Origin: Geodermatophilaceae bacterium NBWT11
GTDB lineage: Bacteria; Actinomycetota; Actinomycetes; Mycobacteriales; Geodermatophilaceae
DNA: 64,000 bases
Assembly: GCA_014218215.1 (NCBI GenBank)
Contig: CP043652.1
Span: forward strand, 1,674,001-1,738,000
Direction of reading: 5' to 3'
Shown here: one piece after another, positions 29,817-46,840 of the stretch
Numbering within the stretch: position 1 is the first letter of the stretch
Layout of the letters: the number at the start of each line of letters is the position of its first letter
Translations under genes and position numbers: made by a program
The notes under the pieces: generated by a model
Database searches by the model: none
Told to the model about the DNA's origin: nothing
Seen by the model: the letters and a program-made list of their open reading frames with translations, nothing else

Positions 29817-29841
29817 GGGGGGAGCGGGGTGCGCTGAGCGG

Positions 29842-30834: not shown

Positions 30835-31833
30835 TCAGCGGTGCGTGCGCAGCGCCGTCCGCACCGTCTCGGACGGCGACTCCCCGAACTGGGCCCGGTA
30901 CTGCCCGGCGAAGCGGCCCAGGTGGGCGAACCCCCAGCGCAGCGCCACGTCGGTGACCGACCGGTCGCCCGCGGTCTCGGTCAGCTCGGCGCGCACCCGG
31001 TCCAGCCGCACCTTGCGCAGGTAGGCCAGCGGCGCCATGCCCACGGTCTCCCGGAACCCGGCCTGCAGCGCCCGCGCCCCGACCCCGGCCACCCGGGTCA
31101 TGTCGACGAGCGTGAGCGGCTGGTCGGGGTGGGCGTCGATGAGCTCCACCACCGCGCCGACCCGGGTGCGCTGCGCCGGCGCCGTAGGGGTGGCCAGCTG
31201 CGCGGAGTGCTCGTGCGGGACGGCGAGCAGCACCTGGGTCATCACGAACGCCTCGAGCTGGTCCCGGGCCAGCGGTGAGGTGGCCAGGCCACCGGGCCGG
31301 GCGAGCTCGCCGCGCAGGAAGTGCACCGCGGACACCAGGTTGCGTCCGGCCGCACGGGTCAGGTCCACGGTCAGGTGGAAGTCGATCGGCCCGCCCACCG
31401 GTCGCCCGAGCAGCCCGGCGAGGTGGTCCTCCAGCTGCCGGCGGGGCAGCTTGATCGCGTACTGCACGGCCTCGGGCGACCAGCGCACCGTGAACGGAGA
31501 CAGCGGCCCGAAGAGCACCCCACGCCGGCCGCCCGACGTCGCCGCCGTCCGGCCACCCTGGCTGACCTGGGTGGCGCCGCCCAGGGTGAGGTTCAGGTGG
31601 TAGCAGTCGAGCATCGCCGGGACGAGCAGTTCGGCGTCCGCGCCGTAGTTCAGGTGACCGACGGTCAGCTTGTGCGACTGCAGGAAGTTCAGCGTGAAGT
31701 CCAGCGGCCGGCCGTCCCGGGAGCGCAGGTCGTGCGGGATGTAGACGTCGGTGATGGCGGCCTGCGCCTCGGCCAGGTCCGACGTGCGCACCAGCCGGGA
31801 GGCCGGCAGCACCGCGTGTCCTGGGTCACCCAC
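30835..31833 (-). CDS. AraC family transcriptional regulator 1
   Basis: A 332-residue regulator with an N-terminal AraC_binding_2-like effector domain (LDFTLNFLQSHKLTVGHLNY, MLDCYHLNLTL, VLFGPLSPFTVRWS) and a C-terminal double HTH (TLVDMTRVAGVGARALQAGF; TDVALRWGFAHLGRFAGQYR). It is a paralogue of the protein at 35772-36755 over its whole length. The GTG at 31833 is chosen because it gives the same N-terminal length as that paralogue and lies about 8 nt after a -10-like TGCACT (31846-31841), implying a leaderless mRNA. Two half-sites 21 bp apart precede it at 31867-31902, so autoregulation is likely. Probable activator of the flavin-monooxygenase regulon. Confidence 0.9.
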   Translation of the reverse strand: MGDPGHAVLPASRLVRTSDLAEAQAAITDVYIPHDLRSRDGRPLDFTLNFLQSHKLTVGHLNYGADAELLVPAMLDCYHLNLTLGGATQVSQGGRTAATSGGRRGVLFGPLSPFTVRWSPEAVQYAIKLPRRQLEDHLAGLLGRPVGGPIDFHLTVDLTRAAGRNLVSAVHFLRGELARPGGLATSPLARDQLEAFVMTQVLLAVPHEHSAQLATPTAPAQRTRVGAVVELIDAHPDQPLTLVDMTRVAGVGARALQAGFRETVGMAPLAYLRKVRLDRVRAELTETAGDRSVTDVALRWGFAHLGRFAGQYRAQFGESPSETVRTALRTHR

Positions 31834-31866
31834 ACGAGCAGTGCACGGTACGACGGCCCCGGCGTC

Positions 31867-31902
31867 CATCCGCTGAGCGCACATCCCTGTCCGCTGGACG
31901 AC
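31867..31902 (-). promoter_or_regulatory. AraC-type half-site pair, promoter of regulator 1
   Basis: Reverse-strand half-sites TGCGCTCAGCGGATG (31881-31867) and GTCGTCCAGCGGACA (31902-31888), 21 bp apart and matching the regulon consensus mainly in GCGGA. A -10-like TGCACT follows 21 bp after the proximal site, then GTG 31833. Confidence 0.65.
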
Positions 31903-31907
31903 CCCAC

Positions 31908-31943
31908 TTCGTCCAGCGGACGACGGTCGTCGTCCGGCGGATC
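31908..31943 (+). promoter_or_regulatory. AraC-type half-site pair, promoter of LLM monooxygenase 1
   Basis: Forward half-sites TTCGTCCAGCGGACG (31908-31922) and GTCGTCCGGCGGATC (31929-31943) match at 11 of 15 positions and are 21 bp apart. A CACGAT hexamer at 31966-31971 fits the -10 position. The distal sites of this and the divergent promoter face each other, forming a perfect 12-bp inverted repeat at 31890-31920. Confidence 0.7.
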
Positions 31944-32017
31944 GTGCGGCCCGGTGCCCGGTGCCCACGATGCCGGGGACGGGTGGCACGCAGCCACCCC
32001 CGACGTGGAGGTCGACG

Positions 32018-33160
32018 ATGACCCTTCCCATGCACCAGGCCGACGGACTGCTGGGCCACTACAAGCCCACCACCGACAACCCGGTCTTCAACGACCAGAA
32101 GCTCAAGCTGGGCATCTTCTCCAGCAACTGCTCCGGCGGCGTGATCATGAGCGACGCCCCCACCGACTTCCGGGTCACCTGGGACCAGCAGCTCGACATC
32201 GCCCGCACCGCCGACCAGCTGGGTCTCGAGGCGATGGTGCCGGTCGGCCGGTGGACCGGGTTCGGGGGCAACACCGACTTCAACGGGGTCTGCTACGAGA
32301 CCTACACGTGGGCCGCGGGGCTGGCCCAGGCGACGGAGAACATCGGCATCTTCACCACCACCCACGTGCCGACCGTGCACCCGATCGTCGCGGCGAAGAT
32401 GGCCGCCACCATCGACCACATCTCCGGCGGCCGGTTCGGGATGAACCTGGTCATGGGCTGGTTCACCCCCGAGATGGAGCTGTTCGGCAAGAAGCAGCTC
32501 GAGCACGACGAGCGCTACGCCTACGGCCAGGAGTGGCTGGACTTCGCGATGAGGCTCTGGAACGAGGAGGGCACCTTCGACGTCGACGGGAAGTACTTCA
32601 CCTCCAAGGGCGCCAAGGCCTTCCCCAAGCCGATCCAGGACCCCCGCCCGGCCCTGCTCAACGCCGGCGCCTCACCGGCCGGGCAGGACTTCTCGGCCAA
32701 GAACGTCGACATCAACCTCATCGCGCTGCCCACCGAGGAGGCCCCGGCCTACGTCAAGGGCATCAAGGCGCTGGCCAACGACACCTACGAGCGCGACATC
32801 GACGTCTGGACGTACTGCCTGGTGATCTGCCGGGAGACCGAGAAGGAGGCCAAGGCGGCCCAGCAGGCGATCATCGACGCCGGCGACTGGCCCGGGGCCA
32901 ACATCATCATGGACGTGCTCGGCATCCAGTCGCAGTCCTTCGGCTCGCAGATCAAGCAGTTCCAGGAGCGCTTCATCGCCGGCTGGGGCGGCCCGAACCT
33001 CGTCGGCACCCCCGAGCAGGTGGCCGAGCAGTTCCACGAGCTGTCCGAGTCCGGCATGGGCGGGGCGATCTTCGGCTTCCACGACTACGCGAAGGAGCTG
33101 AAGGAGTTCGGCGCCGAGGTGCTGCCGATCATGCAGAAGAACGGCCTCCGGCACGCCTGA
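32018..33160 (+). CDS. luciferase-like (LLM) flavin-dependent monooxygenase 1
   Basis: A 380-residue flavin-dependent oxygenase of the LLM superfamily. Recognisable parts are KLGIFSSNCSGGVIM, RWTGFGGNTDFNGVCYETYT, IDHISGGRFGMNLVMGWFTPE and a C-terminal FIAGWGGPNLVGTPEQVAEQ block. The FGGNTDFNG element resembles RutA and the dimethylsulfone-monooxygenase/alkanesulfonate group, which use FMNH2 supplied by a separate reductase. It is a clear paralogue of the protein at 45641-46840 with the same motifs in the same order. ATG 32018 has GGAGG 6 nt upstream. Preceded by AraC-type sites; convergent with the E1-like gene. The substrate is unknown. Confidence 0.9.
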   Translation: MTLPMHQADGLLGHYKPTTDNPVFNDQKLKLGIFSSNCSGGVIMSDAPTDFRVTWDQQLDIARTADQLGLEAMVPVGRWTGFGGNTDFNGVCYETYTWAAGLAQATENIGIFTTTHVPTVHPIVAAKMAATIDHISGGRFGMNLVMGWFTPEMELFGKKQLEHDERYAYGQEWLDFAMRLWNEEGTFDVDGKYFTSKGAKAFPKPIQDPRPALLNAGASPAGQDFSAKNVDINLIALPTEEAPAYVKGIKALANDTYERDIDVWTYCLVICRETEKEAKAAQQAIIDAGDWPGANIIMDVLGIQSQSFGSQIKQFQERFIAGWGGPNLVGTPEQVAEQFHELSESGMGGAIFGFHDYAKELKEFGAEVLPIMQKNGLRHA

Positions 33161-33176
33161 CCACCCTCACCCACGA

Positions 33177-33238
33177 CTCGCCGCCCTCACCAGCGTTGGT
33201 GAGGGCGGCGAGGCGTGGATCAGGTCACCTGATCCACG
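33177..33238. terminator. double hairpin between convergent LLM 1 and E1-like genes
   Basis: First hairpin: CTCGCCGCCCTCACCA (33177-33192) pairs perfectly over 16 bp with 33197-33212 around a GCGT loop. Second: CGTGGATCAGGT (33214-33225) with ACCTGATCCACG (33227-33238), 12 bp around one base. No U-tracts; a bidirectional terminator for the convergent pair is likely. Confidence 0.75.
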
Positions 33239-33244
33239 CTGGGG

Positions 33245-35581
33245 TCACAGCAGGTCGAGGGCGGCGCCGACGACGGAGTCGGTGTCGATGCCGTGGTGCC
33301 GGTAGACGCTCTGCAGGTCGCCGGACTGGCCGAAGCGGGTGACGCCCAGGTGCGCGGCGGGCACCCGGTGCACGCCGGCCAGGAACGCCAGCGTGTGCGG
33401 GTGGCCGTCGAGCACGGTCACCATCGGGGTGGCCCGGTCGGCGGGGAACACCGAGCCCAGGACGGCGTCGTCCACCACCGGGGTGCCGACGTCGTCCAGC
33501 CCGCGGCGGGCCTGCAGCGCGCGGAAGAGCAGCCCCGGGCTGGTCACCACGACCACGTCGGCCGGGTGGCCCAGCGCGGTCAGCCGGTCGGCCGCGGCCA
33601 GGCCCTCGGTGATCATCGCGCCCATGGTCACGACGGTGACGGCGGGCTCGGCGACGCGGCGCAGTGCGTACGCCCCGCCCACCACCTGACGACGACGACG
33701 CTCGCGGGCGGCCGGGTCGGTCGGCACCTCGGCCAGCGCCTGGTCGACCGGCCGGGTGGACAACCGCAGGTAGGCGCTGGACCCGTCGGCCTTCCCGAGC
33801 CGACCCAGCGAGGCCAGCAGGCACCACTCGGTGTCCAGGGCGAAGCCCGGCTCGTAGGTGACCACGCCCGGCTGCTCCAGCCCGATCGAGGGGCTGGTGA
33901 TCGACTGGTGCGCCCCGCCCTCGGGCGCCAGCGTGACCCCGGACGGCGTCCCCACCAGGATCGACTGGCCGCCGGCGTAGACCCCGAAGCTCCACGGCTC
34001 CAGCGCCCGGGAGACGAACGGGTCGTACATGACGCCGATCGGCAGCAGCGGCTGCGCCCACCGGTTCCACGTGGAACCCAGCTCGCCCATCAGCGACACC
34101 AGGTTGACCTCGGCGATGCCCAGCTCGACGTGCTGGCCGCTGGGCCGCTCGCGCCAGTGCAGGATCGTCTCGGGGTCGTCGGAGAACCAGTCGCGGCGGT
34201 CCTCGGCCGACCAGACGCCGACCTTGTTCACCCAGCCGCCCAGGTTGGTGGAGCTGGAGACGTCGGGGCTGACCGTGACCACCCGGGCGCCGGCCTCGGG
34301 CGCGGCCCGGTTGAGGTCGAGCAGGGTGCGGCCCAGCGCGGCCTGGGTGGTCGCCGTGCCGGACGGCGTCCGGCCCAGGTCGGCGGGCACGGCCGGGGCA
34401 CCGGCGCCCTCGTGCTCGGGCTTGCGCAGGCGCCGCGCGGCATCGGCCAGCAGCCGGCCGGGCTCGGTGTGCGGGTCGAAGGCCGCCCACGGCTGCGCCG
34501 GGTCCACCCCCACCCGGTCGGCCAGCTCGTGCAGCTGGGCCTCGTTCAGCAGCGCGGAGTGGTTCTGCGGGTGCCCCTCGGTGGCCAGCCCGTAGCCCTT
34601 GAGCGTGTAGGCCAGCACCACGGTGGGGCGGGTGTCGTCGATCTGGGCGAACGCCGTCCGCAGGGCCTGCAGGTCGTGCCCACCCAGGTTGCGCACGGCG
34701 GCGACCAGGTCCTCGTCGGAGACCCCGGCGATCAGCCCGGCCACCGCGGCGGCCCCGGCGCCGTCCCCGGGCAGGTGCTCGCGCAGCTCGGCGGCGGTGC
34801 GGCGCAGCATCCGCTGGTACTCGGGGTTGGTCATCTCGTCGATCCGGTCGCGCAGCTCGGGGCCGCCCTCGCGGGTGTAGAGCTCCTCCAGCAGGGCGCC
34901 GTACTTGACGGTGAGCACCTGCCAGCCGGCGGCGGCGAACATGCCCTGCAGCCGGACGGCGCCCATCGTGGGCACCACCCGGTCCAGCGACTGGCGGTTG
35001 AGGTCGACCACCCAGACGACCTCGCCCAGCTCGGCCACCATCGGGTCGACCACGGCCTCCCAGACCGCGCCCTCGTCGAGCTCGGCGTCCCCGACCAGCG
35101 ACCACTGCCGGCCCGCACCGCCGGTGCCGAACTGGGTGTTGACGTAGCGGCGGGCGATCGCGCCCCAGATCGGCGCGGTGGCCCCGATGCCGACCGAGCC
35201 GGTGGAGTAGTCCGCGGGCACCGGGTCCTTCAACCGCGAGGGGTAGGACTGCAGGCCGCCGAACTCGCGCAGCGTGGTCAGCGCCGAGGCCGGCAGCTGG
35301 CCGAGCAGGAACTCCAGCGCGTGCAGCACCGGGGAGGCGTGCGGCTTGACCGACACCCGGTCCTCCGGGCCCAGCGTCTCCAGCCACAGCGCGGTCATGA
35401 TCGTCGCGATCGAGGCGCTGGAGGCCTGGTGGCCGCCGACCTTGAGCCCGTCGGGGTTGGGGCGCACCCGGTTGGCGTGGTCGACGATCGAGGAGGCCAG
35501 CCAGAGCACGCGCTGCTCGATCTCCCGCAACGCGGTGTCGTGGGTGCTCGTTCCGGCGGCGTTGCCGAGGGTGGCGGTCAC
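33245..35581 (-). CDS. thiamine-diphosphate enzyme, pyruvate dehydrogenase E1 (AceE)-like
   Basis: A 778-residue ThDP enzyme of the homodimeric E1/transketolase type. Residues about 170-215 carry the ThDP motif (LVGDAELDEGAVWEAV ending VVDLNRQSLDR, as in AceE), the N-terminal domain has VGGHQASSASIATIM, and the C-terminal transketolase domains have APEGGAHQSITSPSIGLEQP. It is shorter than actinobacterial AceE (about 900 residues) and is not beside E2 or E3 genes. The GTG at 35581 is chosen over ATG 35593 because a -10-like CATGCT (35594-35589) covers that ATG, making a leaderless GTG start. Two AraC-type half-sites precede it, so it belongs to the LLM regulon. It may act on a 2-oxo acid formed in that pathway. 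Confidence 0.82.
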   Translation of the reverse strand: MTATLGNAAGTSTHDTALREIEQRVLWLASSIVDHANRVRPNPDGLKVGGHQASSASIATIMTALWLETLGPEDRVSVKPHASPVLHALEFLLGQLPASALTTLREFGGLQSYPSRLKDPVPADYSTGSVGIGATAPIWGAIARRYVNTQFGTGGAGRQWSLVGDAELDEGAVWEAVVDPMVAELGEVVWVVDLNRQSLDRVVPTMGAVRLQGMFAAAGWQVLTVKYGALLEELYTREGGPELRDRIDEMTNPEYQRMLRRTAAELREHLPGDGAGAAAVAGLIAGVSDEDLVAAVRNLGGHDLQALRTAFAQIDDTRPTVVLAYTLKGYGLATEGHPQNHSALLNEAQLHELADRVGVDPAQPWAAFDPHTEPGRLLADAARRLRKPEHEGAGAPAVPADLGRTPSGTATTQAALGRTLLDLNRAAPEAGARVVTVSPDVSSSTNLGGWVNKVGVWSAEDRRDWFSDDPETILHWRERPSGQHVELGIAEVNLVSLMGELGSTWNRWAQPLLPIGVMYDPFVSRALEPWSFGVYAGGQSILVGTPSGVTLAPEGGAHQSITSPSIGLEQPGVVTYEPGFALDTEWCLLASLGRLGKADGSSAYLRLSTRPVDQALAEVPTDPAARERRRRQVVGGAYALRRVAEPAVTVVTMGAMITEGLAAADRLTALGHPADVVVVTSPGLLFRALQARRGLDDVGTPVVDDAVLGSVFPADRATPMVTVLDGHPHTLAFLAGVHRVPAAHLGVTRFGQSGDLQSVYRHHGIDTDSVVGAALDLL

Positions 35582-35616
35582 ACCGACCAGCATGACGCCC
35601 GCGCGCGCCGGGCGTC

Positions 35617-35652
35617 GATCCGCCCGCGGCAGCCCGACAGCCGCACACCGCA
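35617..35652 (-). promoter_or_regulatory. AraC-type half-site pair, promoter of the E1-like gene
   Basis: Reverse-strand distal site TGCGGTGTGCGGCTG (35652-35638), matching the consensus at nearly every position, and proximal site TGCCGCGGGCGGATC (35631-35617), 21 bp apart. The -10-like CATGCT follows 23 bp after the proximal site and is 8 nt before the GTG start. Confidence 0.7.
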
Positions 35653-35660
35653 CCCATCTC

Positions 35661-35696
35661 GACGCCCGGCGGACACCCTGCTGCGCGCAACGGCTG
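35661..35696 (+). promoter_or_regulatory. AraC-type half-site pair, promoter of regulator 2
   Basis: Forward distal site GACGCCCGGCGGACA (35661-35675) and proximal site TGCGCGCAACGGCTG (35682-35696), 21 bp apart; TAGATT (35718-35723) begins 22 bp after the proximal site ends. Lies back-to-back with the E1-like promoter. Confidence 0.7.
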
Positions 35697-35771
35697 GTCG
35701 GACCACCCGGTCCGGCCTAGATTGCGGCTCAGGTGTGGCTGGCGCCACACGGGTCGAGCCCGGAGGTGATC

Positions 35772-36755
35772 GTGCAGAGCAGTGCCGCGCTGCCGTTGTC
35801 ACGCTTCCCCGTCGTCGGGACGCACAGCCTCGAGGAGGCCCGCGACGCGGTCACCCGGGTGTACCTGGCGCACGACCTGACGGCCGACCACGACCGGGTG
35901 GACATGACGCTCAACGCCGTCGCCGACCACCACCTGACCCTGGGCTACCTGACCTACCAGGCGGCGGCGGAGCTGACCATGCCGCCGACCGAGGACTGCT
36001 ACCACGTCAACCTCACGACGGCGGGGTCCACCGACGCCGACCGCTCCGACGGCGCCCGGGCCCGCACCGAGGCCCGCCGCTCCGGCGCCGTGCTCAACCC
36101 GCTGCAGCGCAACACCGTGCGCTGGAGCGCCGACGCCGAGCAGCTGATCCTCAAGATCCCGCGCAGCAGCCTGGAGTCCCACCTCGGCGACCTGGTCGGC
36201 CGGTCGGTCGCCGAGGTGCTGGACTTCGACTTCGGCCTGGACCTCACCCACGCCGCCGGGCAGTCGCTGCTCAACTCGGTGGAGTTCCTGGCCCGCGAGC
36301 TGGACCGCCCCGGTGGGCTGGCCGACATGCCGCTGGCCCGCGAGCAGCTCGAGGCGTTCGTGATGACCCAGGTGCTGCACGCCGGACGGCACCAGTTCTC
36401 CGACGTGCTGGCCGCCCCCGCCGAGGCCGTCCGGTACGGCCGGCTCGCCCCCGTCGTCGCCTTCCTGGAGGAGCACGCCGACGAGCCGCTGACCCCGCAG
36501 CAGCTGGCCCGGGTGGGCTGCATGAGCGTGCGCACCCTGCACGCGGCGTTCCAGCAGCAGTTCGGGGAGTCCCCGATGAGCTACCTGCGCCGGGTCCGGC
36601 TGGACCGGGTGCGCAGCGAGCTGGTGCGCAGCGACCCGGCCACGGTGCGGGTCACCGAGGTCGCGATGCGCTGGGGCTTCTTCCACCAGAGCCGTTTCGC
36701 CCAGCAGTACCGGGACCGCTTCGGCGAGCTCCCGTCCGCCACCCTCCGGCACTGA
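35772..36755 (+). CDS. AraC family transcriptional regulator 2
   Basis: A 327-residue AraC regulator, full-length paralogue of the one at 30835-31833 (shared VYLAHDL, TPTED-like DCYHVNLTT, QLEAFVMTQVL and the double-HTH tail ending WGFFHQSRFAQQYRDRFGE). The effector domain covers about residues 1-200 and the DNA-binding domain 215-320. GTG 35772 has GGAGG 6 nt upstream; an earlier GTG at 35733 close to the -10 element is an alternative leaderless start. Its promoter carries the same 21-bp half-site pair. It is followed 20 nt later by the SCO6745-family gene. Two paralogous activators over one site family could integrate two inducers. Confidence 0.92.
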   Translation: MQSSAALPLSRFPVVGTHSLEEARDAVTRVYLAHDLTADHDRVDMTLNAVADHHLTLGYLTYQAAAELTMPPTEDCYHVNLTTAGSTDADRSDGARARTEARRSGAVLNPLQRNTVRWSADAEQLILKIPRSSLESHLGDLVGRSVAEVLDFDFGLDLTHAAGQSLLNSVEFLARELDRPGGLADMPLAREQLEAFVMTQVLHAGRHQFSDVLAAPAEAVRYGRLAPVVAFLEEHADEPLTPQQLARVGCMSVRTLHAAFQQQFGESPMSYLRRVRLDRVRSELVRSDPATVRVTEVAMRWGFFHQSRFAQQYRDRFGELPSATLRH

Positions 36756-36775
36756 CCCCCTCGAGGAGCCCCACC

Positions 36776-37690
36776 GTGGACTACGCAGAACTGTCGGCCG
36801 CCTTCCTGGCCGAGCCCTCCGCCGGGCGACCCGCCCCCCGGGTGCCCACCGGCGCGGCCCGCTCGCTGCGTGACGCGGCCGAACCGCTGGCCACCATCGG
36901 CTTCTGGGGCAAGCCCGCCTACGCCGCGATGGAGGCCCTGGGCCTGGAGTTCCTCACCGGCTACGTGTGGGGCCGCACCGCCCCGATGGGCGAGCCCACC
37001 GCGCCGGTCGTCGTCGCCGCCTTCGGGGTCTTCGAGCCCGGGCTGGTCACCTCCCTCTACGAGGACGCCCGCGGCATCGCCTCCCGCGCCGACGTGCTCG
37101 CCGCCCGGGAGCGCGGGGCCGTCGAGTCGCTGCACGAGGTGCTCGGCGACGTCCCCACCGGGGACGTCGAGACCGCCGTCGCCCAGCTCCGCCGGGCCAC
37201 CGACCTGGCCGTGGCCGACGTCGCCGGCCGCCCGCTGGTCGCCGGCCTGGCCTCGCTGGACTGGCCCGAGGACCCGCTGGGCCAGCTGTGGCACGCGCTC
37301 AACCTGCTGCGCGAGTACCGCGGCGACACCCACCAGGCGGCCAACGTCGCCGCCGGGCTGACCGGGGTGCAGATGAACCTGGTGACCGAGTACTGGGTGG
37401 GCTGGGAGCCCACCGCCTACGCCGGCACCCGCGGCTGGGCCCCGGAGGTCATGGCCGCCGCCGACGCCGACCTGGTCGCCCGCGGCTGGGTCGCCGACGG
37501 CGCGCTCACCCCGCAGGGCCAGACCGAACGCGACCGCATCGAGGCCCAGACCGACGCCGCCATGGACCGGGTGCTCGCCCCGATCGGCGACGACGTCCCC
37601 GCCCTGACCGAGCAGCTGGACGCCTGGTCGGCCCAGATCGTGGCGGCGGGCGCGGCGCCGTCGGACCCGTACAAGCGCATCTCCGGCTGA
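36776..37690 (+). CDS. SCO6745 family protein
   Basis: A 304-residue predominantly helical protein of the actinobacterial SCO6745-type family: AAEPLATIGFWGKPAYAAME, GYVWGRTAPMG, VAAFGVFEPGLV, the LWHALNLLREYRGDTHQAANV helix and a C-terminal winged-helix-like tail with LTPQGQTERDRIEAQTD. The last part looks like a marR-type helix-turn-helix, but no DNA-binding activity is known. GTG 36776 has AGGAG 8 nt upstream. It sits in the AraC 2 operon inside the LLM regulon; the role there is unknown. Ends before a strong hairpin. Confidence 0.8.
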   Translation: MDYAELSAAFLAEPSAGRPAPRVPTGAARSLRDAAEPLATIGFWGKPAYAAMEALGLEFLTGYVWGRTAPMGEPTAPVVVAAFGVFEPGLVTSLYEDARGIASRADVLAARERGAVESLHEVLGDVPTGDVETAVAQLRRATDLAVADVAGRPLVAGLASLDWPEDPLGQLWHALNLLREYRGDTHQAANVAAGLTGVQMNLVTEYWVGWEPTAYAGTRGWAPEVMAAADADLVARGWVADGALTPQGQTERDRIEAQTDAAMDRVLAPIGDDVPALTEQLDAWSAQIVAAGAAPSDPYKRISG

Positions 37691-37696
37691 CCCGCG

Positions 37697-37755
37697 GCAG
37701 GGGAAGCCCCGCACACACCCGTGGACCCCGGTGGTGTGTGCAGGGCTTCCCCTGC
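37697..37755. terminator. 23-bp-stem hairpin between convergent genes
   Basis: Arms 37697-37719 and 37733-37755 pair over 23 positions with one mismatch around a 13-nt loop; the outer arm is GCAGGGGAAGCCC. The same outer arm occurs in the hairpin at 50360-50426. Lies between the SCO6745-like and Zn-dehydrogenase stops. Confidence 0.75.
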
Positions 37756-37775
37756 CTGGGTGCGGGCGGTCCCCC

Positions 37776-39313: not shown

Positions 39314-39407
39314 GACTCTCCCTGTCGTCGGCCGGGCTGCGGTGCCCGGCGTCTGCGGAGAAAGGTAGGGCGCAACACATGTGCGGTCCAGACCCGCGGG
39401 GCCAGGC

Positions 39408-39443
39408 TGCGCTGTGCGGATGGAGGTCCGCCGACGGCGGATG
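39408..39443 (+). promoter_or_regulatory. AraC-type half-site pair, promoter of the CaiB-ribBA operon
   Basis: TGCGCTGTGCGGATG (39408-39422) and CGCCGACGGCGGATG (39429-39443) share GCGGATG exactly 21 bp apart. TACCGT (39465-39470) begins 22 bp after the proximal site, which overlaps the expected -35, the class II activator position. Confidence 0.75.
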
Positions 39444-39509
39444 GTCGGCGTCCCCCGGACTGCCTACCGTCGGACCCGACCCCGCACGACGACGTGAGGA
39501 GCAGTCCCC

Positions 39510-40709
39510 GTGACCGGTGCCCTGGACGGCATCCGCGTGCTCGAGATCGGCACGCTCATCGCCGGTCCCTTCGCCGGGCGGCTGCTCGGCGACCAGGGGG
39601 CCGACGTGGTCAAGATCGAGGCCCCGGACCGCCCCGACCCGCTGCGCACCTGGGGCCAGGTGCACGAGGACGGCCGCGGCTTCTTCTGGACCGTGCACGC
39701 CCGCAACAAGCGCTGCATCACCCTGGACCTGCGCTCCGAGCGCGGCCAGGAGCTCTTCCTGGGTCTGGCCGCCGACGCCGACGTGGTGGTGGAGAGCTTC
39801 CGGCCCGGCACGCTGGAGCGCTGGGGCCTGGGCTACGACCGGCTGAGCGCGGCCAACCCCGGCCTGGTGCTCGCCCGGGTCTCCGGCTACGGCCAGACCG
39901 GCCCGATGGCCGCCCAGCCCGGGTACGCCAGCGTCGCCGAGGCCCGCGCCGGGATGCGCTACGTGACCGGCTTCCCCGGCCAGCCGCCGGTGCGGATGGC
40001 GCTGTCGCTGGGCGACTCGCTGGCCGGCATGTTCGCCTGCCAGGGCATCCTCACCGCGCTGGTCGCCCGGGGCCGCACCGGCCGCGGGCAGGTGGTCGAC
40101 GCCGCCCTCACCGACTCCTGCCTCGCGGTGACCGAGTCGATGGTCGCCGACTACTCGCGCGCCGGGCACGTCCGCCAGCCCAGCGGCACCCGGCTGGACG
40201 CCATCGCGCCGTCCAACAGCTACGAGACCGCCGACGGCACCTTCGTGATCATCGCGGCGAACCAGGACACCCTGTTCCGGCGGCTGTGCGCGGCGATGGA
40301 CCGCCCCGAGCTCGCCGACGACGAGCGGTACGCCACGCACACCGCGCGGGCCCGCAACCAGGACGAGCTCGACGCGCTGATCGGTGCGTGGGCCAGGGAG
40401 CTCCCGCCGGACGACGTGGTGGCCCGCTGCTCGACCGCCGGTGTCGTCGTCGGACCGGTCGCCACCATCGCCGACGTCGTGGCCGACGAGCAGTTCGCCG
40501 CCCGGGACATGCTCGTCGCCCACCACGACCTGGGCGTCGGTGCCGACGTGCTCGGCCCCGGCATCACCCCGCAGCTGTCCGAGACCCCGGGCACGGTCCG
40601 CTGGGCCGGCCCGCCGCGGCCGGGCAGCCACAACACCGAGGTCTACGGCGAGCTGCTCGGGCTCACCGCCGACGACCTCACCGAGCTGGCCGAGCAGGGA
40701 GTGGTCTGA
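39510..40709 (+). CDS. CaiB/BaiF family CoA-transferase
   Basis: A 399-residue family III CoA-transferase, paralogue of the one at 4439-5644. It opens ALDGIRVLEIGTLIAGPFAG and has the catalytic aspartate at residue 169 (LSLGDSLAGM). Head of a six-gene operon with HMG-CoA-lyase, FMN reductase, aldehyde dehydrogenase, flavin reductase and RibBA. The start is GTG 39510, with GAGGAG upstream, 40 bp after the predicted -10. It probably converts a dicarboxylic or branched acid to its CoA ester for the adjacent lyase, for example a 3-hydroxy-3-methylglutarate-type acid; this is inference. Confidence 0.93.
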   Translation: MTGALDGIRVLEIGTLIAGPFAGRLLGDQGADVVKIEAPDRPDPLRTWGQVHEDGRGFFWTVHARNKRCITLDLRSERGQELFLGLAADADVVVESFRPGTLERWGLGYDRLSAANPGLVLARVSGYGQTGPMAAQPGYASVAEARAGMRYVTGFPGQPPVRMALSLGDSLAGMFACQGILTALVARGRTGRGQVVDAALTDSCLAVTESMVADYSRAGHVRQPSGTRLDAIAPSNSYETADGTFVIIAANQDTLFRRLCAAMDRPELADDERYATHTARARNQDELDALIGAWARELPPDDVVARCSTAGVVVGPVATIADVVADEQFAARDMLVAHHDLGVGADVLGPGITPQLSETPGTVRWAGPPRPGSHNTEVYGELLGLTADDLTELAEQGVV

Positions 40710-40710
40710 C

Positions 40711-41628
40711 GTGGAGCTGCCCAGGAACGTCGACGTCCGCGAGGTGGGGCTGCGCGACGGTCTGCAGATCGAGGCGCCGATCCCGCTGGCGGCCAAGGTC
40801 GCGATGCTGGAGGCCCTCGTGGCCACCGGGGTCCAGCGCATCGAGGTCACCTCGTTCGTGTCGCCCAAGGCCGTGCCGGCACTGGCCGACGCCGACGAGC
40901 TCGCCGCGCAGCTGCACCGCTTCCCCGGGGTGCACTTCTCCGCGCTGGTGGCCAACCTGCGCGGCGCCCAGCGCGCGGTCGACGCCGGGATCCCGCACCT
41001 GGAGTACGTGGTCAGCGCCGCCGACAGCCACTCCCGGGCCAACGCCGGGCGGCCCACCGCGGAGGCCGTCGAGGCGGTCGGCGCGATCGCCGAGGTCTCG
41101 CACGGCGCCGGCGGGTCGCTCGAGGTGATCGTGGCGACGGCGTGGGACTGCCCCTTCGACGGACGGACCGATCCGTCCCGGGTGCTGGACGTCGTCCGGT
41201 CCGCGGTGGCCCAGGGCGCCGACCAGCTGTGCCTGGGCGACACCATCGGCACGGTCACGCCCCGGCGCACCGTCGACCTGCTCGACGCCGTCCGGGACGC
41301 CGCGCCCGGGCTGCCGCTGGGCGCGCACTTCCACGACACCCGCGGCACCGGCCAGGCCAACGCGCTGGCCGCCGTCCTCGCCGGGGTGACCCAGCTCGAC
41401 GCCTCGGTCGGCGGGCTCGGCGGCTGCCCGTTCGCCCCCGGCGCCAGCGGCAACATCGCCACCGAGGAGCTCGTCTACTGGCTGGCCGACTCCGGCGTGG
41501 AGACCGGCATCGACCTGGACGCCGTCCTCACCGCGGCCGCGGTCACCGAGGACGCGGTCGGGCACGCCCTGCCCAGCTCGCTGTTCCGGGCCGGTGGCAC
41601 CAGCCGCCCGCGGGGGGAGTTCCGGTGA
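40711..41628 (+). CDS. hydroxymethylglutaryl-CoA lyase
   Basis: A 305-residue TIM-barrel lyase. R15-D16 in GLRDGLQ, the metal ligands H206 and H208 in AHFHDTRG, the catalytic cysteine C239 in GGLGGCPFAPGASGN and N248 match HMG-CoA lyase, which splits HMG-CoA to acetoacetate and acetyl-CoA. The GTG start is 1 nt after the CaiB stop and the stop overlaps the FMN-reductase start. Paired with a CoA-transferase, it implies a tertiary 3-hydroxyacyl-CoA intermediate in the pathway. Leucine-catabolic HMG-CoA lyases are usually beside methylcrotonyl-CoA carboxylase genes, which are absent here. Confidence 0.92.
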   Translation: MELPRNVDVREVGLRDGLQIEAPIPLAAKVAMLEALVATGVQRIEVTSFVSPKAVPALADADELAAQLHRFPGVHFSALVANLRGAQRAVDAGIPHLEYVVSAADSHSRANAGRPTAEAVEAVGAIAEVSHGAGGSLEVIVATAWDCPFDGRTDPSRVLDVVRSAVAQGADQLCLGDTIGTVTPRRTVDLLDAVRDAAPGLPLGAHFHDTRGTGQANALAAVLAGVTQLDASVGGLGGCPFAPGASGNIATEELVYWLADSGVETGIDLDAVLTAAAVTEDAVGHALPSSLFRAGGTSRPRGEFR

Positions 41629-42158
41629 AGGTGCTCGGGATCGTGGGCAGCCCGACGGCGGGCGGCCGGACCGACGCCGCCGTCGCGGGCCTGCTGGCCG
41701 GGTGCACCGGCGCCGAGACCCGCAGGCTCAGCCTCGCCGACACCGACGTCCCCACCGTGCTGGACGCCATGGAGGCCGCGGACGCGGTCGTGTTCGGCAG
41801 CCCCACCTACCGGGCGTCGTTCTCCAGCCTGCTCCGCAGCCTGTTCGAGTCCGCCGAGCGCGGCCGGTACGCCACCGAGACCACGGCCCACCTCGCCCGG
41901 ACGACGGCGGCGATCGTGATGACGAACAACGCCCCCGAGCACTACCTGGCCCAGGACTCGCTGCGCAGCCTGCTGGCCGGGTTCTACGGCTGCCAGGTGC
42001 TCAGCCCGGGGCTGGTGCTCACCCACCCGCACTTCGAGGGCACCGAGCTGACCGCCGAGGCCGCCGAGCTGGCTGCCTCGCACGGCCGGGCCCTGGTCGA
42101 CCTCACGACCGCCGTCCTCGCCTCCCCCGCACTCCAGGCACTGGAACCCCAGGTCTGA
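41625..42158 (+). CDS. NADPH-dependent FMN reductase
   Basis: A 177-residue flavodoxin-like reductase. KVLGIVGSPTAGGRTDAAVA is the flavin-phosphate loop, and VVFGSPTYRASFSSLLRSLF is the conserved second loop of the SsuE/MsuE-type NAD(P)H:FMN reductases. These supply FMNH2 to luciferase-like monooxygenases, which suits the two LLM proteins of the regulon. Its GTG overlaps the lyase stop by 4 nt with GGGGGGAG upstream. One of two flavin reductases in the operon. Confidence 0.88.
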   Translation: MKVLGIVGSPTAGGRTDAAVAGLLAGCTGAETRRLSLADTDVPTVLDAMEAADAVVFGSPTYRASFSSLLRSLFESAERGRYATETTAHLARTTAAIVMTNNAPEHYLAQDSLRSLLAGFYGCQVLSPGLVLTHPHFEGTELTAEAAELAASHGRALVDLTTAVLASPALQALEPQV

Positions 42159-42195
42159 CCTGATGACCCCGCACCCTGACGACAAGGAGCAGTCG

Positions 42196-43686
42196 ATGAC
42201 GACCGCAACCCCCACCGACCTCGAGCGCTTCGGCCTGTTCATCGGCGGCGAGACCGTCGACGCCCGCTCGGGGAAGACCTTCGAGTCGCAGAACCCCTAC
42301 ACCGGCCAGCCGTGGGCGACCCTCGCCGACGGCTCCCCCGAGGACGTCGACCTGGCCGTCGCCTCGGCCCGCGCCGCCTTCGACGGCGAGTGGGGCCAGA
42401 TGTCGGGCTTCCAGCGCGCCGCGATCCTGCGGAAGTGCGGCGACGCGATCCTGGCGAACGCCGAGCGGCTGGCCCAGCTGGAGGTCAACGACTCCGGCAA
42501 GCTGATGCGCGAGATGCTCGGCCAGCTCAAGGGCCTGCCCCAGTGGTACTGGTACTTCTCCGGCCTGGCCGACAAGATCGAGGGCCGCACCGTGCCCCCG
42601 GTGAACCAGAACTACTTCGCGTACACCACGCGGGAGCCGGTCGGCGTCGTCGGCTGCATCACCCCGTGGAACTCCCCGCTGCTGCTGCTGACCTTCAAGC
42701 TCGCGCCGCTCCTGGCCGCCGGCAACACCTGCGTGGTCAAGCCCTCGGAGCACGCACCGGCCTCCACCGTGGCCTTCGCCGAGATCCTCACCGAGGCCGG
42801 GCTGCCCGCCGGCGTCATCAACGTCGTCACCGGCTGGGACCGCTCCACCGGCGAGGCGCTGGCCTCGCACACCGGCATCGACAAGGTCGCCTTCACCGGG
42901 TCCACCGCCACCGGGGCCGCCGTGGCCAAGGCCGCGGTGACCAACCTGAACCGGGTCACCCTGGAGCTGGGTGGCAAGAGCCCGCAGATCGTGTTCGCCG
43001 ACGCCGACCTCGACGCCGCCGCGAACGGCCTGGTCGCCGGCGTGTTCGCCGCCACCGGGCAGACCTGCATGGCCGGCTCCCGGCTGATCGTGCACGCCGA
43101 CGTGCACGACGCCCTGATCGAGAAGGTCGCCGCCCGGGCGAACGCGATCAAGCTCGGCGACCCCAACGACGCCGACACCGAGATGGGCCCGGTCGCCAAC
43201 CGCCCGCAGTACGAGAAGGTGCTGGGCTACCTGCAGGGCGCCGCTGCCGAGGGCGCGACCTTCGCCTGCGGCGGGGAGCCCTCGGCCGAGCTCGGCGGGC
43301 TCTTCGTCAAGCCCACCGTGGTCACCAACGTCGGTCCGGAGAACACCATCGTCCGCGAGGAGGTGTTCGGGCCGGTGCTCGCCGCCTACACCTTCACCGA
43401 GGAGGACGAGGCGCTGAAGCTGGCCAACGACACCCCCTACGGCCTGGCCGGGGCGGTGTGGACCAAGGACGTGCACCGCGCGCACCGGGTCGCCGCCAAG
43501 CTCCGCGCCGGCACCGTCTGGGTCAACGCCTACCGCGTGGTGGCCCCGAACATGCCCTTCGGCGGGTTCGGCAACTCCGGCATCGGCCGGGAGAACGGCG
43601 TCGAGGCGATCAACGAGTACACCGAGAACAAGTCGGTGTTCATCGAGCTCACCGGCGGCACCCGCGACCCCTTCCAGCTGGGCTGA
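42196..43686 (+). CDS. aldehyde dehydrogenase
   Basis: A 496-residue NAD(P)-dependent aldehyde dehydrogenase. N158 in TPWNSP, K182 in VKPSEHAP, the general base E257 in LELGGKSP and the nucleophile C291 in GQTCMAGS are all intact. Start ATG 42196 has GGAG 7 nt upstream. In this operon it would oxidise an aldehyde from oxygenase or E1-like chemistry to the acid that the CoA-transferase activates. Specific substrate unknown. Confidence 0.95.
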   Translation: MTTATPTDLERFGLFIGGETVDARSGKTFESQNPYTGQPWATLADGSPEDVDLAVASARAAFDGEWGQMSGFQRAAILRKCGDAILANAERLAQLEVNDSGKLMREMLGQLKGLPQWYWYFSGLADKIEGRTVPPVNQNYFAYTTREPVGVVGCITPWNSPLLLLTFKLAPLLAAGNTCVVKPSEHAPASTVAFAEILTEAGLPAGVINVVTGWDRSTGEALASHTGIDKVAFTGSTATGAAVAKAAVTNLNRVTLELGGKSPQIVFADADLDAAANGLVAGVFAATGQTCMAGSRLIVHADVHDALIEKVAARANAIKLGDPNDADTEMGPVANRPQYEKVLGYLQGAAAEGATFACGGEPSAELGGLFVKPTVVTNVGPENTIVREEVFGPVLAAYTFTEEDEALKLANDTPYGLAGAVWTKDVHRAHRVAAKLRAGTVWVNAYRVVAPNMPFGGFGNSGIGRENGVEAINEYTENKSVFIELTGGTRDPFQLG

Positions 43687-43689
43687 GCC

Positions 43690-44172
43690 GTGCTGGCCGA
43701 GCAGTTCCGTGAGGTGATGTCCGGGGTCGCGACCCCGGTGTCGGTGGTGACCGCGGTGTCGGCCGACGGCGTCCCGCACGGGACGACGGTCTCGGCCTTC
43801 GCCTCGTTGTCGATGGACCCGCCGATGGTGCTGGTGTCCCTGGACCGGGGGTCGGACCTGCTGACCCTGGTCCGGGACACCGGCCGGTTCGGGGTCAACG
43901 TGCTCGGGTCCACCCAGTCGGCGCTGGCACTGTCCTTCGCCCGCAAGGGCACCGACAAGTTCGCCAGCGTCGACTGGGTGCCCGACCAGGGCCTGCCCCG
44001 GTTGCCCGGGGCGCCGGGCTGGCTGGCCTGCGAGGTGGCCTCCCTGGTCGAGGGCGGGGACCACGTCGTGGCACTGGGCACCGTGCTGGCCGCCGACACC
44101 GCCGACGGTGCGCCGCTGACCTACCACTCGAGGGTGTTCGGCACCCACGCCGCACTGGAGGCCACGGCATGA
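43690..44172 (+). CDS. flavin reductase family protein
   Basis: A 160-residue split-barrel flavin reductase. The pattern SGVATPVSVVTAV, GTTVSAFASLSMDPPMVLVS and GRFGVNVLGSTQ is typical of HpaC/flavin-reductase domain proteins that deliver reduced flavin to two-component monooxygenases. The GTG start is 3 nt after the aldehyde dehydrogenase stop and its stop overlaps the RibBA start (ATGA). A second flavin reductase of a different fold from the one at 41625, suggesting that each LLM enzyme may have its own partner. Confidence 0.9.
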   Translation: MLAEQFREVMSGVATPVSVVTAVSADGVPHGTTVSAFASLSMDPPMVLVSLDRGSDLLTLVRDTGRFGVNVLGSTQSALALSFARKGTDKFASVDWVPDQGLPRLPGAPGWLACEVASLVEGGDHVVALGTVLAADTADGAPLTYHSRVFGTHAALEATA

Positions 44173-45428
44173 CCCGCAGGACACCCACCGAGGCCGTGCA
44201 GACCGCCGTCGCAGCGATCGCCGCCGGCGGCATGGTGATCGTCGTCGACGACGAGGACCGGGAGAACGAGGGCGACCTCATCCTCGCCGCCGAGCTGTGC
44301 ACGGTCGAGCAGATGGCGTTCCTCGTCCGGCACACCACCGGCATCGTCTGCGCCCCGATGCCCGCTGCTCGAGCCACCGAGCTGCAGCTGCCGCTGATGG
44401 TCACCGACAACACCGACGCCCACGGCACCGCGTTCACGATCACCGTCGACGCCCTGGACACCTCCACCGGCGTCTCGGCCGCCGACCGCGCCACCACCGT
44501 CCAGGCGCTGGCCTCGGCGGCCACCACGCCCGCGCAGCTGCGTCGTCCCGGGCACGTGTTCCCGCTCATCGCCCGCGCCGGCGGGGTGCTGGTGCGGGCC
44601 GGGCACACCGAGGCCGCCGTCGACCTCACCACCATGGCCGGGCTCTCCGGCGTCGGCGTGATCGGGGAGATCGTCGACGAGGACGGCTCCATGCGCGCCG
44701 GTGCCTCGCTCACCGCGTTCGCCGAGGAGCACGGGCTGCCGGTGCTGGCGATCGCCGACCTCGTCCGGCACCGCCGGGCCACCGAGCGCCTCGTCGAGGT
44801 CGTCGGCACCTCCGCCATGCCGACGGAGTTCGGGGACTTCCGCGCCACCGCCTACCGCAACACCCTCGACGGCACCGAACACCTCGCCCTGGTGATGGGC
44901 GACCTCGCCGCAGCCTCCCGGACGACCGAGGGCGCCCTGGTGCGGGTGCACTCCGAGTGCCTCACCGGGGACATCCTCGGCTCGCTGCGCTGTGACTGTG
45001 GCGGGCAGCTGGAACAGGCGCTGGCCGCGATCGCCGCCGAAGGCGCCGGCGCGGTGGTCTACCTGCGCGGCCACGAGGGCCGCGGCATCGGCCTCGGACA
45101 CAAGATCCGCGCCTACGCCCTGCAGGAGCAGGGCCTGGACACCGTGGACGCCAACACCGCCCAGGGCCTGCCCGTCGACAGCCGTTCCTACGGCGTCGGC
45201 GCCCAGATCCTCGGCGACCTCGGCGCCACCCGCATCCGTCTGATCACCAACAACCCCGCCAAGTACGGCGGCCTCGACGGCTACGGCCTCACCATCACCG
45301 GCCGGGTCGCCCTCCCCACCGTGGAGACCGCGCACAACGTGCGGTACCTGCGCACCAAGCGGGAGCGGATGGGCCACCTCGGCCCGCACCTGTCCGCCGT
45401 CGTCGACCTCCCCGTCGCCGGAGTCTGA
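44169..45428 (+). CDS. ribBA: bifunctional 3,4-dihydroxy-2-butanone 4-phosphate synthase / GTP cyclohydrolase II
   Basis: A 419-residue RibBA protein. The N-terminal DHBP synthase domain (about 1-205) has DDEDRENEGD, HTTGIVCAP, DAHGTAFT and RAGHTEAAVDL. The C-terminal GTP cyclohydrolase II domain has HSECLTGDILGSLRCDCGGQ with zinc ligands C264, C275 and C277, and RGHEGRGIGL. Both start riboflavin synthesis, from ribulose 5-phosphate and GTP. The ATG overlaps the flavin-reductase stop by 4 nt, so this copy is under the catabolic promoter, unlike a housekeeping rib operon (no ribD, ribE or ribH follow). It probably raises flavin supply when the FMN-dependent oxygenases are made. Confidence 0.95.
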   Translation: MTRRTPTEAVQTAVAAIAAGGMVIVVDDEDRENEGDLILAAELCTVEQMAFLVRHTTGIVCAPMPAARATELQLPLMVTDNTDAHGTAFTITVDALDTSTGVSAADRATTVQALASAATTPAQLRRPGHVFPLIARAGGVLVRAGHTEAAVDLTTMAGLSGVGVIGEIVDEDGSMRAGASLTAFAEEHGLPVLAIADLVRHRRATERLVEVVGTSAMPTEFGDFRATAYRNTLDGTEHLALVMGDLAAASRTTEGALVRVHSECLTGDILGSLRCDCGGQLEQALAAIAAEGAGAVVYLRGHEGRGIGLGHKIRAYALQEQGLDTVDANTAQGLPVDSRSYGVGAQILGDLGATRIRLITNNPAKYGGLDGYGLTITGRVALPTVETAHNVRYLRTKRERMGHLGPHLSAVVDLPVAGV

Positions 45429-45508
45429 CCCACCCCCTGACAAAGGAACCTCTGCACCCCCCATCAGCGCCGATGGGGGGTGTGGAGGTTCCTTCGTCAG
45501 GGGGTGGG
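45429..45508. terminator. large hairpin after ribBA
   Basis: An 80-nt imperfect inverted repeat: CCCACCCCCTGAC (45429-45441) pairs with 45496-45508, the AAGGAACCTC arm with GAGGTTCCTT and CACCCCCCATC with GATGGGGGGTG, closed by AGCGCC. Two small internal mismatches, no U-tract. It separates the operon from the LLM 2 promoter. Confidence 0.8.
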
Positions 45509-45514
45509 CAGGTC

Positions 45515-45550
45515 TGCGCCGAGCGGCCGGAGGGGTGCGCTGCGCGGCTG
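45515..45550 (+). promoter_or_regulatory. AraC-type half-site pair, promoter of LLM monooxygenase 2
   Basis: TGCGCCGAGCGGCCG (45515-45529) and TGCGCTGCGCGGCTG (45536-45550) agree at 12 of 15 positions and are 21 bp apart. TAGCGT (45572-45577) begins 22 bp after the proximal site, the same geometry as at 39.4 and 35.7 kb. Confidence 0.75.
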
Positions 45551-45640
45551 TCGAGGGCCCTCCGGCGGACCTAGCGTCGTCGGCGAGACGTGGCCCAGGG
45601 CACACCGAAGACCCGGCCCGCCGACCTCGAGGAGCCTCCC

Positions 45641-46840
45641 GTGACGACCACCGACGACCGTCCGACCGAGACCGCCAACGTCCGCCTGGGCCTGGCCCCC
45701 ACCGACCCGCGCCCGGCCAACGAGACCGGCCCGCTGGCCGACCGGCAGAAGACCAACCCGCTGTTCAACGACCAGAAGATGAAGCTGGGCCTGTTCGGCA
45801 CCAACTGCTCCTTCGGGCTGATCATGAGCCACGCGGCCAGCAGCTACGAGGTCACCTGGGAGCACACCAAGGCGATCGCCCAGCGCGCCGACCAGATGGG
45901 CTTCGAGGCCCTCATCCCGGTCGCGCGCTGGAAGGGCTTCGGCGGCTCGACGAACTTCAACGGCAACTGCTTCGAGACCTACACCTGGGCCGCCGGCCTG
46001 GCCGAGGCCACCGAGCACATCGCCATCGCCGCGACGAGCCACCTGCCCACGATGCACCCGATCGTCTCGGCCAAGCAGGCCACCACGATCGACCACATCT
46101 CCGGTGGCCGGTTCGCCCTCAACCTGGTCATGGGCTGGGTGACCCCGGAGATGGAGATGTTCGGCGGCTCGCAGCGCGAGCACGACCGCCGCTACGCCTT
46201 CGGCCAGGAGTGGATCGACTACGCGTTCAAGCTGTGGTCGGAGACCGGCAGCTTCGACGTGGACGGCGAGTTCTTCTACGGCCGGGACGTCGAGGCCTAC
46301 CCCAAGCCCGTGCAGGGCCCCCGCCCGGCGCTGGTGAACGCCGGCAACTCCGCCTCGGGCATCGAGTTCTCCGCCCGCAACGTCGACGTCAACTTCGCCT
46401 CCCTGGACACCCTGGAGAACGTGAAGACGTACACGTCCTCCCTCAAGGAGAAGGCCAAGAGCGAGTACTCCCGCGACATCCAGACGATGACCTACGGGCT
46501 GATCGTCTGCCGGGACACCGAGGCCGAGGCCAAGGCCGCGTTCCAGAACGTCGTGGACGAGGGCGACTGGGGCGCCGCCGGCAACGTCATCAAGATCGCC
46601 GGCTCGGGTGCCTCGCAGTCCTTCGACCACGTGGTGAAGGAGTACCAGGAGCGCTTCATCGCCGGCTGGGGCGGCTACCCGATCGTCGGCACCCCGGAGC
46701 AGGTCACCGAGGAGCTGGTGAAGCTCAACGAGGCCGGCATGGACGGGATGATCATGGGGCTCATCGACTACAAGGAAGAGCTCGAGATCTTCAACGACGA
46801 CATCCTGCCGCTGATGAAGCAGGCCGGCATCCGCCACTGA
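45641..46840 (+). CDS. luciferase-like (LLM) flavin-dependent monooxygenase 2
   Basis: A 399-residue paralogue of the enzyme at 32018-33160, with a longer N-terminus. Shared landmarks are FNDQKMKLGLFGTNCSFGLIM, WKGFGGSTNFNGNCFETYT, DHISGGRFALNLVMGWVTPE and FIAGWGGYPIVGTPEQVTEE. GTG 45641 is chosen for its GAGGAG about 8 nt upstream; the frame stays open further upstream without better signals. FMN-dependent by family, with reductase partners encoded just upstream. Two related oxygenases under one regulator could act on successive intermediates or on different substrates. Confidence 0.9.
   Translation: MTTTDDRPTETANVRLGLAPTDPRPANETGPLADRQKTNPLFNDQKMKLGLFGTNCSFGLIMSHAASSYEVTWEHTKAIAQRADQMGFEALIPVARWKGFGGSTNFNGNCFETYTWAAGLAEATEHIAIAATSHLPTMHPIVSAKQATTIDHISGGRFALNLVMGWVTPEMEMFGGSQREHDRRYAFGQEWIDYAFKLWSETGSFDVDGEFFYGRDVEAYPKPVQGPRPALVNAGNSASGIEFSARNVDVNFASLDTLENVKTYTSSLKEKAKSEYSRDIQTMTYGLIVCRDTEAEAKAAFQNVVDEGDWGAAGNVIKIAGSGASQSFDHVVKEYQERFIAGWGGYPIVGTPEQVTEELVKLNEAGMDGMIMGLIDYKEELEIFNDDILPLMKQAGIRH

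Follow-up and report, generated by a model that had tools for sequence, protein, structure and literature searches.

Putative XylS-type operators at six promoters of a predicted flavin-dependent degradation cluster in a Geodermatophilaceae bacterium

The window analysed here is a 64,000-nucleotide stretch of Geodermatophilaceae bacterium NBWT11 (contig CP043652.1; C1:1674001-1738000 of a 4.59-Mb single-contig genome) which carries a gene cluster containing two AraC-family regulators (AraC1 and AraC2) and two luciferase-like monooxygenases (LLM1 and LLM2). Six pairs of direct half-sites stand upstream of AraC1, LLM1, an E1-like gene, AraC2, CaiB and LLM2 in this cluster and, judged on their sequence, are very probably operators of XylS-type activators that would co-induce a predicted flavin-dependent degradation cluster.

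The operator pairs, their conservation and their layout

Each pair spans 36 bp and consists of two 15-bp half-sites separated by a 6-bp gap (n = 6). A first-pass annotation had claimed six AraC-type pairs arranged as direct repeats 21 bp apart; all six were found where it placed them when read in the window, and the step holds in 12 of 12 half-sites. The AraC1 pair lies at 31867..31902 on the minus strand (distal half-site GTCGTCCAGCGGACA, proximal TGCGCTCAGCGGATG), the LLM1 pair at 31908..31943 on the plus strand, the E1 pair at 35617..35652 on the minus strand, and the AraC2, CaiB and LLM2 pairs at 35661..35696, 39408..39443 and 45515..45550 respectively, all on the plus strand. Of the core GCGG, earlier proposed as the most conserved part, CGG at half-site positions 10-12 is present in all 12. 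The consensus put forward with it, TGCGCTSNGCGGMTG, is loose at full length, the relaxed pattern.GC-N7-GG being present in 8 of the 12 window half-sites. A third tandem half-site considered at 45557 was dropped, as it is not conserved in aligned relatives.

A matrix built from the 12 window half-sites was used to scan related clusters for pairs at each step from 16 to 44 bp. Across 34 distant loci (677 kb, from Pseudonocardia, Actinomycetospora, Streptomyces, Mycolicibacterium, Nakamurella, Arthrobacter, an unclassified actinobacterial metagenome-assembled genome and four Bacillus-group loci) step 21 yields 58 pairs scoring 17 bits or more and the 28 other steps 0-6 apiece; in 11 near loci, several of which represent the same genome twice, step 21 yields 39 against 0-6. 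A set of 29 distant actinobacterial loci, some of them close relatives of one another, excludes the Bacillus-group loci and the near-copy L085; here 61 of the 70 pairs reaching 15 bits precede cluster genes on the correct strand. A matrix refined on those 61 places 81 of 87 pairs before cluster genes, 12-135 bp from the start, two of them overlapping another pair; this is not an independent count because the refinement was trained on gene-linked pairs. By gene these pairs precede the aldehyde dehydrogenase (ALDH, 27), AraC (22), flavin reductase (13), RibBA (9), CaiB (9) and LLM2 (1), and at least one is present in each of the 29 loci; the refined distant half-site consensus is TGCACTSARCGGATA. 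At orthologous Klenkia and Modestobacter promoters, in alignments anchored at the pairs and comprising 3 to 7 sequences each, half-site identity is 0.75-0.96 (0.60 for E1), whereas the adjoining 40 bp upstream reach 0.30-0.56, and matrix-free MAFFT alignments give the same conserved islands. In seven aligned promoters, the window included, the CaiB pair core is identical throughout and the LLM2 pair core reaches 0.96; the LLM1 pair is kept in L107, L110 and L115. The first-pass annotation had asked whether the sites are kept upstream of orthologous genes, and the near and distant scans and the promoter alignments indicate that they are.

The position of the -10 element, which played no part in choosing pairs, is equally regular. 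Within +20 to +25 past the proximal half-site a TANNNT hexamer is found for 72 of 80 distinct distant pairs, 34 at +22 and 38 at +23, with none at the other four positions, while control rates are 0.35% at random positions and 2.8% in shuffled sequence. In the window, the earlier claim of a -10-like hexamer 21-23 bp past every proximal site is borne out in part, with TANNNT at +22 before AraC2, CaiB and LLM2 and different hexamers at +22/+23 in the other three promoters. Given an assumed 17-bp spacer, a -10 at +22 places the -35 hexamer two bases inside the proximal half-site.

The pairs also stand out from their own genome. When each was scored with a matrix of the other five against 798,600 positions in 400 kb of random own-genome DNA, scores ranged from 15.0 to 28.9 bits and five of the six exceeded every random position: AraC1 (28.9 bits), LLM1 (22.2 bits), E1, CaiB and LLM2, each 0/798,600. 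The AraC2 pair is the weakest, its 15.0 bits being equalled or beaten at 2/798,600 positions. The refined matrix (M2), which holds no window or near sites though it was seeded by the window matrix, scores five pairs at 25.7 (CaiB), 22.1 (AraC1), 21.8 (E1), 21.1 (LLM2) and 18.3 bits (AraC2), and at step 21 finds no pair reaching 12 bits in 400 kb of DNA drawn at random from the genome itself. A profile (R1) was further built from 71 non-window sites and searched against the genome, 150 of 17,068 first-look candidates being scored. The best four of the 75 matches listed are window positions 39408 (CaiB, E 3.1e-4), 45515 (LLM2, E 8e-4), 35618 (E1, E 0.0015) and 31867 (AraC1, E 0.011). The fifth lies outside the window (G000:C1:854062, E 0.11), and was rejected as a partial match in a region without a 21-bp pair of at least 13 bits; the AraC2 pair is next (E 0.12; 0.119). 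Since the top four listed matches lie in the cluster, the regulon looks local, although, with 150 of 17,068 candidates scored, further weak sites may exist. To the question of whether 21-bp pairs are equally frequent genome-wide, also raised earlier, the profile search, the random-DNA scan with M2 and the leave-one-out scores all answer no. One further pair, at 29809..29844 on the plus strand before a 2-hydroxyacid dehydrogenase gene, scores 20.4 bits with the window matrix, but its proximal half alone is strong (M2 -5.7 + 18.5), its profile match (E 0.21) is partial and shifted in register, and no TANNNT was found at +20 to +25, so that it is retained as a weak candidate for a seventh promoter.

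The layout can be named more closely. In the Pm promoter of the TOL plasmid pWW0, XylS sites are direct repeats of TGCAN6GGNTA that extend two bases into the -35, according to a passage of PMC4225500, and their order is TGCA-N6-GGNTA-N6-TGCA-N6-GGNTA, a 21-bp step, in a part of PMC4514859 (see also section 4 of PMC5481539). In 30 kb of pWW0, picked to contain xylS and Pm and scanned at 29 steps on both strands, the refined actinobacterial matrix finds the Pm operator as its best match, at step 21 with 24.7 bits, the next match at that step scoring 2.5; the operator stands just upstream of dioxygenase genes with TAGGCT at +22. XylS, AraC1 and AraC2 all carry AraC_binding_2 (PF14525) and HTH_18 (PF12833) domains. 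Because the refined matrix picks the Pm operator as best match at step 21, the layout is, on sequence grounds, that of XylS/Pm with a GC-shifted and looser half-site, a more specific description than 'AraC-type'. Of the earlier 'classical AraC activator layout', the AraC-family regulon is strongly supported on sequence and the name gives way to XylS/Pm.

Regulators, a variant box A and rival explanations

Several observations weigh against this reading. The strict pattern TGCA-N6-GGNTA occurs in 0/12 window and 9/162 distant half-sites, compared with 142/162 distant half-sites for the relaxed form, and the window-only matrix does not find Pm in the same 30 kb of pWW0. The LLM1 pair scores 4.2 bits with M2 and 11.0 bits with profile R1, ranking eighth in the window, and is not among the 75 own-genome matches listed. 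Three of the six promoters (AraC1, LLM1 and E1) lack TANNNT at +22; the hexamers at +22/+23 are TGCACT for AraC1, which has a TANNNT at +17, CACGAT for LLM1 and CATGCT for E1. Both L107 and L110 retain TGCACT and CACGAT, the latter with a one-base shift in L107, and one of two E1 relatives retains CATGCT. Among distant LLM clusters L195 and L198 have no 21-bp pair of at least 13 bits, L198 looking like a 22-bp step; L109, a second LLM2-like locus of genome G097, has none among its top matches; and none of the four Bacillus-group loci L094-L097 has a pair of at least 16 bits. The scored fraction of own-genome candidates, 150/17,068, and the profile's 21 of 71 rows from orthologous Klenkia and Modestobacter promoters count on the same side.

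From what can be read directly, namely site sequence, spacing, -10 position, conservation, gene linkage and regulator domains, we infer binding and activation as follows. A dimer of the AraC/XylS family would occupy two 15-bp direct half-sites, each with a box A (TGC) and a box B (GGMT), across the 6-bp gap, the 21 bp between halves corresponding to two helical turns. AraC2 would act at the sites, except that for LLM1 the regulator is probably AraC1. On sensing a pathway compound, the regulators would jointly induce flavin supply (RibBA and two reductases) and the two LLM monooxygenases, and the same switch would turn on the downstream ALDH, CoA-transferase, CoA-lyase and E1 steps that degrade the substrate.

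AraC1 (30835..31812, minus strand, start codon approximate) and AraC2 (35733..36755, plus strand) were also considered as AndR and rejected, at 152 and 130 bits respectively against an NCBIfam equivalog cut-off of 350. The six sites had been treated as one class, but that of LLM1 appears to belong to a second class of specificity. Its box A reads TTCGTCC / GTCGTCC with the usual box B, TTCG/GTCG standing in place of TGCR. This variant precedes LLM1 in all four AraC1-bearing family genomes (G000, G081, G088 and G095, represented by the window, L107, L110 and L115), whereas in the three LLM1-bearing genomes without AraC1 (G076, G080 and G082; L104-L106) a canonical pair precedes LLM1 right after the upstream gene. 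In the AraC/XylS family the first helix-turn-helix (HTH1) reads box A. Each operator sub-motif meets one HTH, according to a passage of PMC6205950. The HTH1 segment at XylS residues 240-248 reads SPRSLYNLF in XylS, SVRTLHAAF in AraC2 and GARALQAGF in AraC1, while HTH2 is alike. It is conceivable, and we propose it tentatively, that AraC2 (SVRTLH) reads TGCR and AraC1 (GARALQ) reads TTCG/GTCG and owns LLM1, with box B and HTH2 in common, in a regulon serving an undescribed actinobacterial route. Elsewhere, where an AraC1-like regulator carries SARALQ, the best pair nearby shows TTCG in one half (L212, L213, L215 and L216, 22-bp step) or in both (L219), these pairs being located mainly by the window matrix, which itself includes the LLM1 variant; the L203 regulator (SVRALQ) has TGCG in both halves of its best nearby pair, and L220 (GARALQ) and L202 (TARGLQ) have no nearby pair of at least 17 bits.

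It is also possible, if rather doubtful, that AraC2 alone runs every promoter including that of LLM1, the variant box A being drift and AraC1 redundant or devoted to other targets. AraC1 orthologues (91-98% identity) are indeed present in just 4 of 112 family genomes, own included, the promoter of AraC1 itself looks canonical in L107 and L110, and the blank result for the GARALQ regulator of L220 fits the same explanation. The contrasts at LLM1 are, moreover, few independent events because its seven genomes include several close relatives: G000 and G081 agree at 98% in both AraC1 and the LLM1 stretch compared, and the others are likewise close to one another. The variant LLM1 half-sites are, however, better conserved than any of the other five sets (0.96, n = 3) and therefore show the opposite of drift, and both the four-to-three partition of variant and canonical pairs with AraC1 and the difference in HTH1 weigh against AraC2 acting alone.

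Binding of the direct repeats by a regulator of another family, with the AraC genes as mere neighbours, is improbable. Although related clusters in other phyla do have GntR or IclR genes, 28 of the 29 site-bearing distant actinobacterial loci have an AraC2-like gene and the remaining one, L070, is cut by a contig end; the sites, moreover, match XylS/Pm in half-site, spacing and -10 position. The chance that the pairs are fortuitous matches in GC-rich DNA is negligible: the bare core GCGGMYG-N14-GCGGMYG is no commoner than its reversed control (55 genome matches against 191) and was dropped as evidence, but in distant genomes the excess at step 21 and the constant place of the -10 contradict such an origin.

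Steps other than 21 bp were also encountered. For AraC1-like regulators of other families the best pair in the vicinity is at a 22-bp step, at L203:1311-1347 on the minus strand (equivalent to L198 ~12270-12306) and near 1379 in L212, L213, L215 and L216. Strong pairs at L114:5057 (plus strand, step 20, 26.2 bits) and L121:14424 (minus strand, step 19, 24.1 bits) are possibly sites of other XylS-type regulators.

Genes of the cluster and a possible pathway

LLM1 (32018..33160, plus strand) is followed by the E1-like thiamine diphosphate enzyme (transketolase/AceE-like; 33245..35581, minus strand), whose GTG start is at 35581; with a -10 at +23 its predicted transcription start (window 35581-35594) nearly coincides with this GTG, which suggests a leaderless mRNA. 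Directly downstream of AraC2 lies an HTH_67 family protein by Pfam (36776..37690, plus strand), earlier termed an SCO6745 protein. The CaiB operon on the plus strand comprises a CaiB-type family III CoA-transferase (39510..40709), a 3-hydroxy-3-methylglutaryl-CoA (HMG-CoA) lyase-like protein (HMGL; 40702..41628, start approximate; 290 bits, exceeding the NF004283 cut-off of 246), an NADPH-dependent flavin mononucleotide (FMN) reductase (FMN_red, 41625..42158), ALDH (42163..43686), a flavin reductase (43690..44172) and RibBA (44169..45428; 592 bits, exceeding the NF006803 cut-off of 569), with LLM2 at 45590..46840, also on the plus strand. The previously listed CaiB, HMGL, ALDH, reductase and RibBA are thus all present, and FMN_red between HMGL and ALDH had been omitted.

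RutA and SfnG are the curated models nearest to both LLMs and the nearest solved structures to LLM2, but both LLMs fall well below the equivalog cut-offs (183-188 against 383 bits for SfnG, 167-175 against 498 for RutA) and were rejected as either; nor does the E1-like enzyme reach the model cut-off for AceE. The closest named loci by LLM2 are those of Klenkia species and Modestobacter lapidis, so that the genome probably belongs to Klenkia. Distant clusters share a constant module of AraC, ALDH and LLM2, joined in many by RibBA, flavin reductase, CaiB and HMGL, and have E1 in four Streptomyces loci and L196. Neighbouring genes, for which the Pfam scans give hints only, include an MFS protein, FMN reductase, LLM, ALDH, flavin reductase and AraC in Siminovitchia (L095), and aconitase-like genes in L082 and L093. 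LeuCD-like genes accompany CaiB and HMGL on a plasmid of Peribacillus and an isocitrate-lyase-family gene on one of Variovorax; L198 has genes for an amidase and a binding protein nearby, and Variovorax one for an isochorismatase-family hydrolase. Because Rhodococcus relatives of E1 adjoin E2 and Lrp genes, E1 alone cannot identify the pathway. A route can nevertheless be outlined by inference, in which LLM1/LLM2 would carry out oxygenation, an aldehyde would be oxidised, CoA transfer would provide activation, the HMGL-like lyase would split a 3-hydroxyacyl-CoA and E1 would use a 2-oxo acid; by analogy with RutA-like enzymes the substrate may be a cyclic amide or N-heterocycle. Searches for the operator and for the pathway in an open-access library, which covers few subscription journals, gave no description of this cluster among the papers listed; the earlier statement that no described pathway has this set is so far uncontradicted there, though unproven.

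LLM-like genes were noted in two other settings. A third one in the window, at 19556-20608, is about 28% identical to LLM2 and has close relatives in L103 and L115; the eight best pairs on each strand include no 21-bp pair upstream of it. Many plasmids of bean-nodule rhizobia (e.g. L118) carry an LLM with about 45% identity to LLM2; in the one rhizobial plasmid locus examined an LLM lies with a flavin reductase, a lactonase-like gene and ABC transporter genes.

Comparison with known systems

The closest counterpart is XylS/Pm of the Pseudomonas putida TOL plasmid, which shares the two 15-bp direct half-sites, the 6-bp gap, TANNNT at +22 and the regulator domains. It differs in that the half-sites here are GC-shifted and looser, as seen in TGCACTSARCGGATA for the distant loci and TGCGCTSNGCGGMTG for the window, and control an LLM/CoA-lyase cluster instead of meta-cleavage genes, with several promoters per cluster and a second regulator. 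BenR/Pben of Pseudomonas fluorescens has a 5-bp gap and a benzoate dioxygenase operon, its sites being termed putative in the relevant part of PMC1360089. Among actinobacteria, CphR of Rhodococcus sp. YH-5B, as described in parts of PMC6205950, is an AraC/XylS regulator acting through imperfect TGCA-N6-GGNTA direct repeats that overlap the -35 by two bases to control a two-component flavin monooxygenase (cphA2A1), so that XylS-type control of such an actinobacterial enzyme is already in print. Its repeats at -35 to -49 and -55 to -69 are, however, spaced at a 20-bp step, and they serve one divergent operon for a phenol-type substrate. With AraC1-like pairs elsewhere at 22 bp and CphR at 20, the step differs between subfamilies. 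What would be new here is the breadth, the LLM/CoA-lyase gene set under such sites and a hint of operator division between paralogues. The system is a source of promoter parts for GC-rich hosts and a natural experiment on how box A specificity changes from one paralogue to the other, and its sharply bounded gene set is a starting point for tracing the substrate of an unassigned flavin monooxygenase pathway. It would also extend the XylS/Pm operator code, known from aromatic pathways and from one operon of Rhodococcus, to a regulon in several actinobacterial genera.

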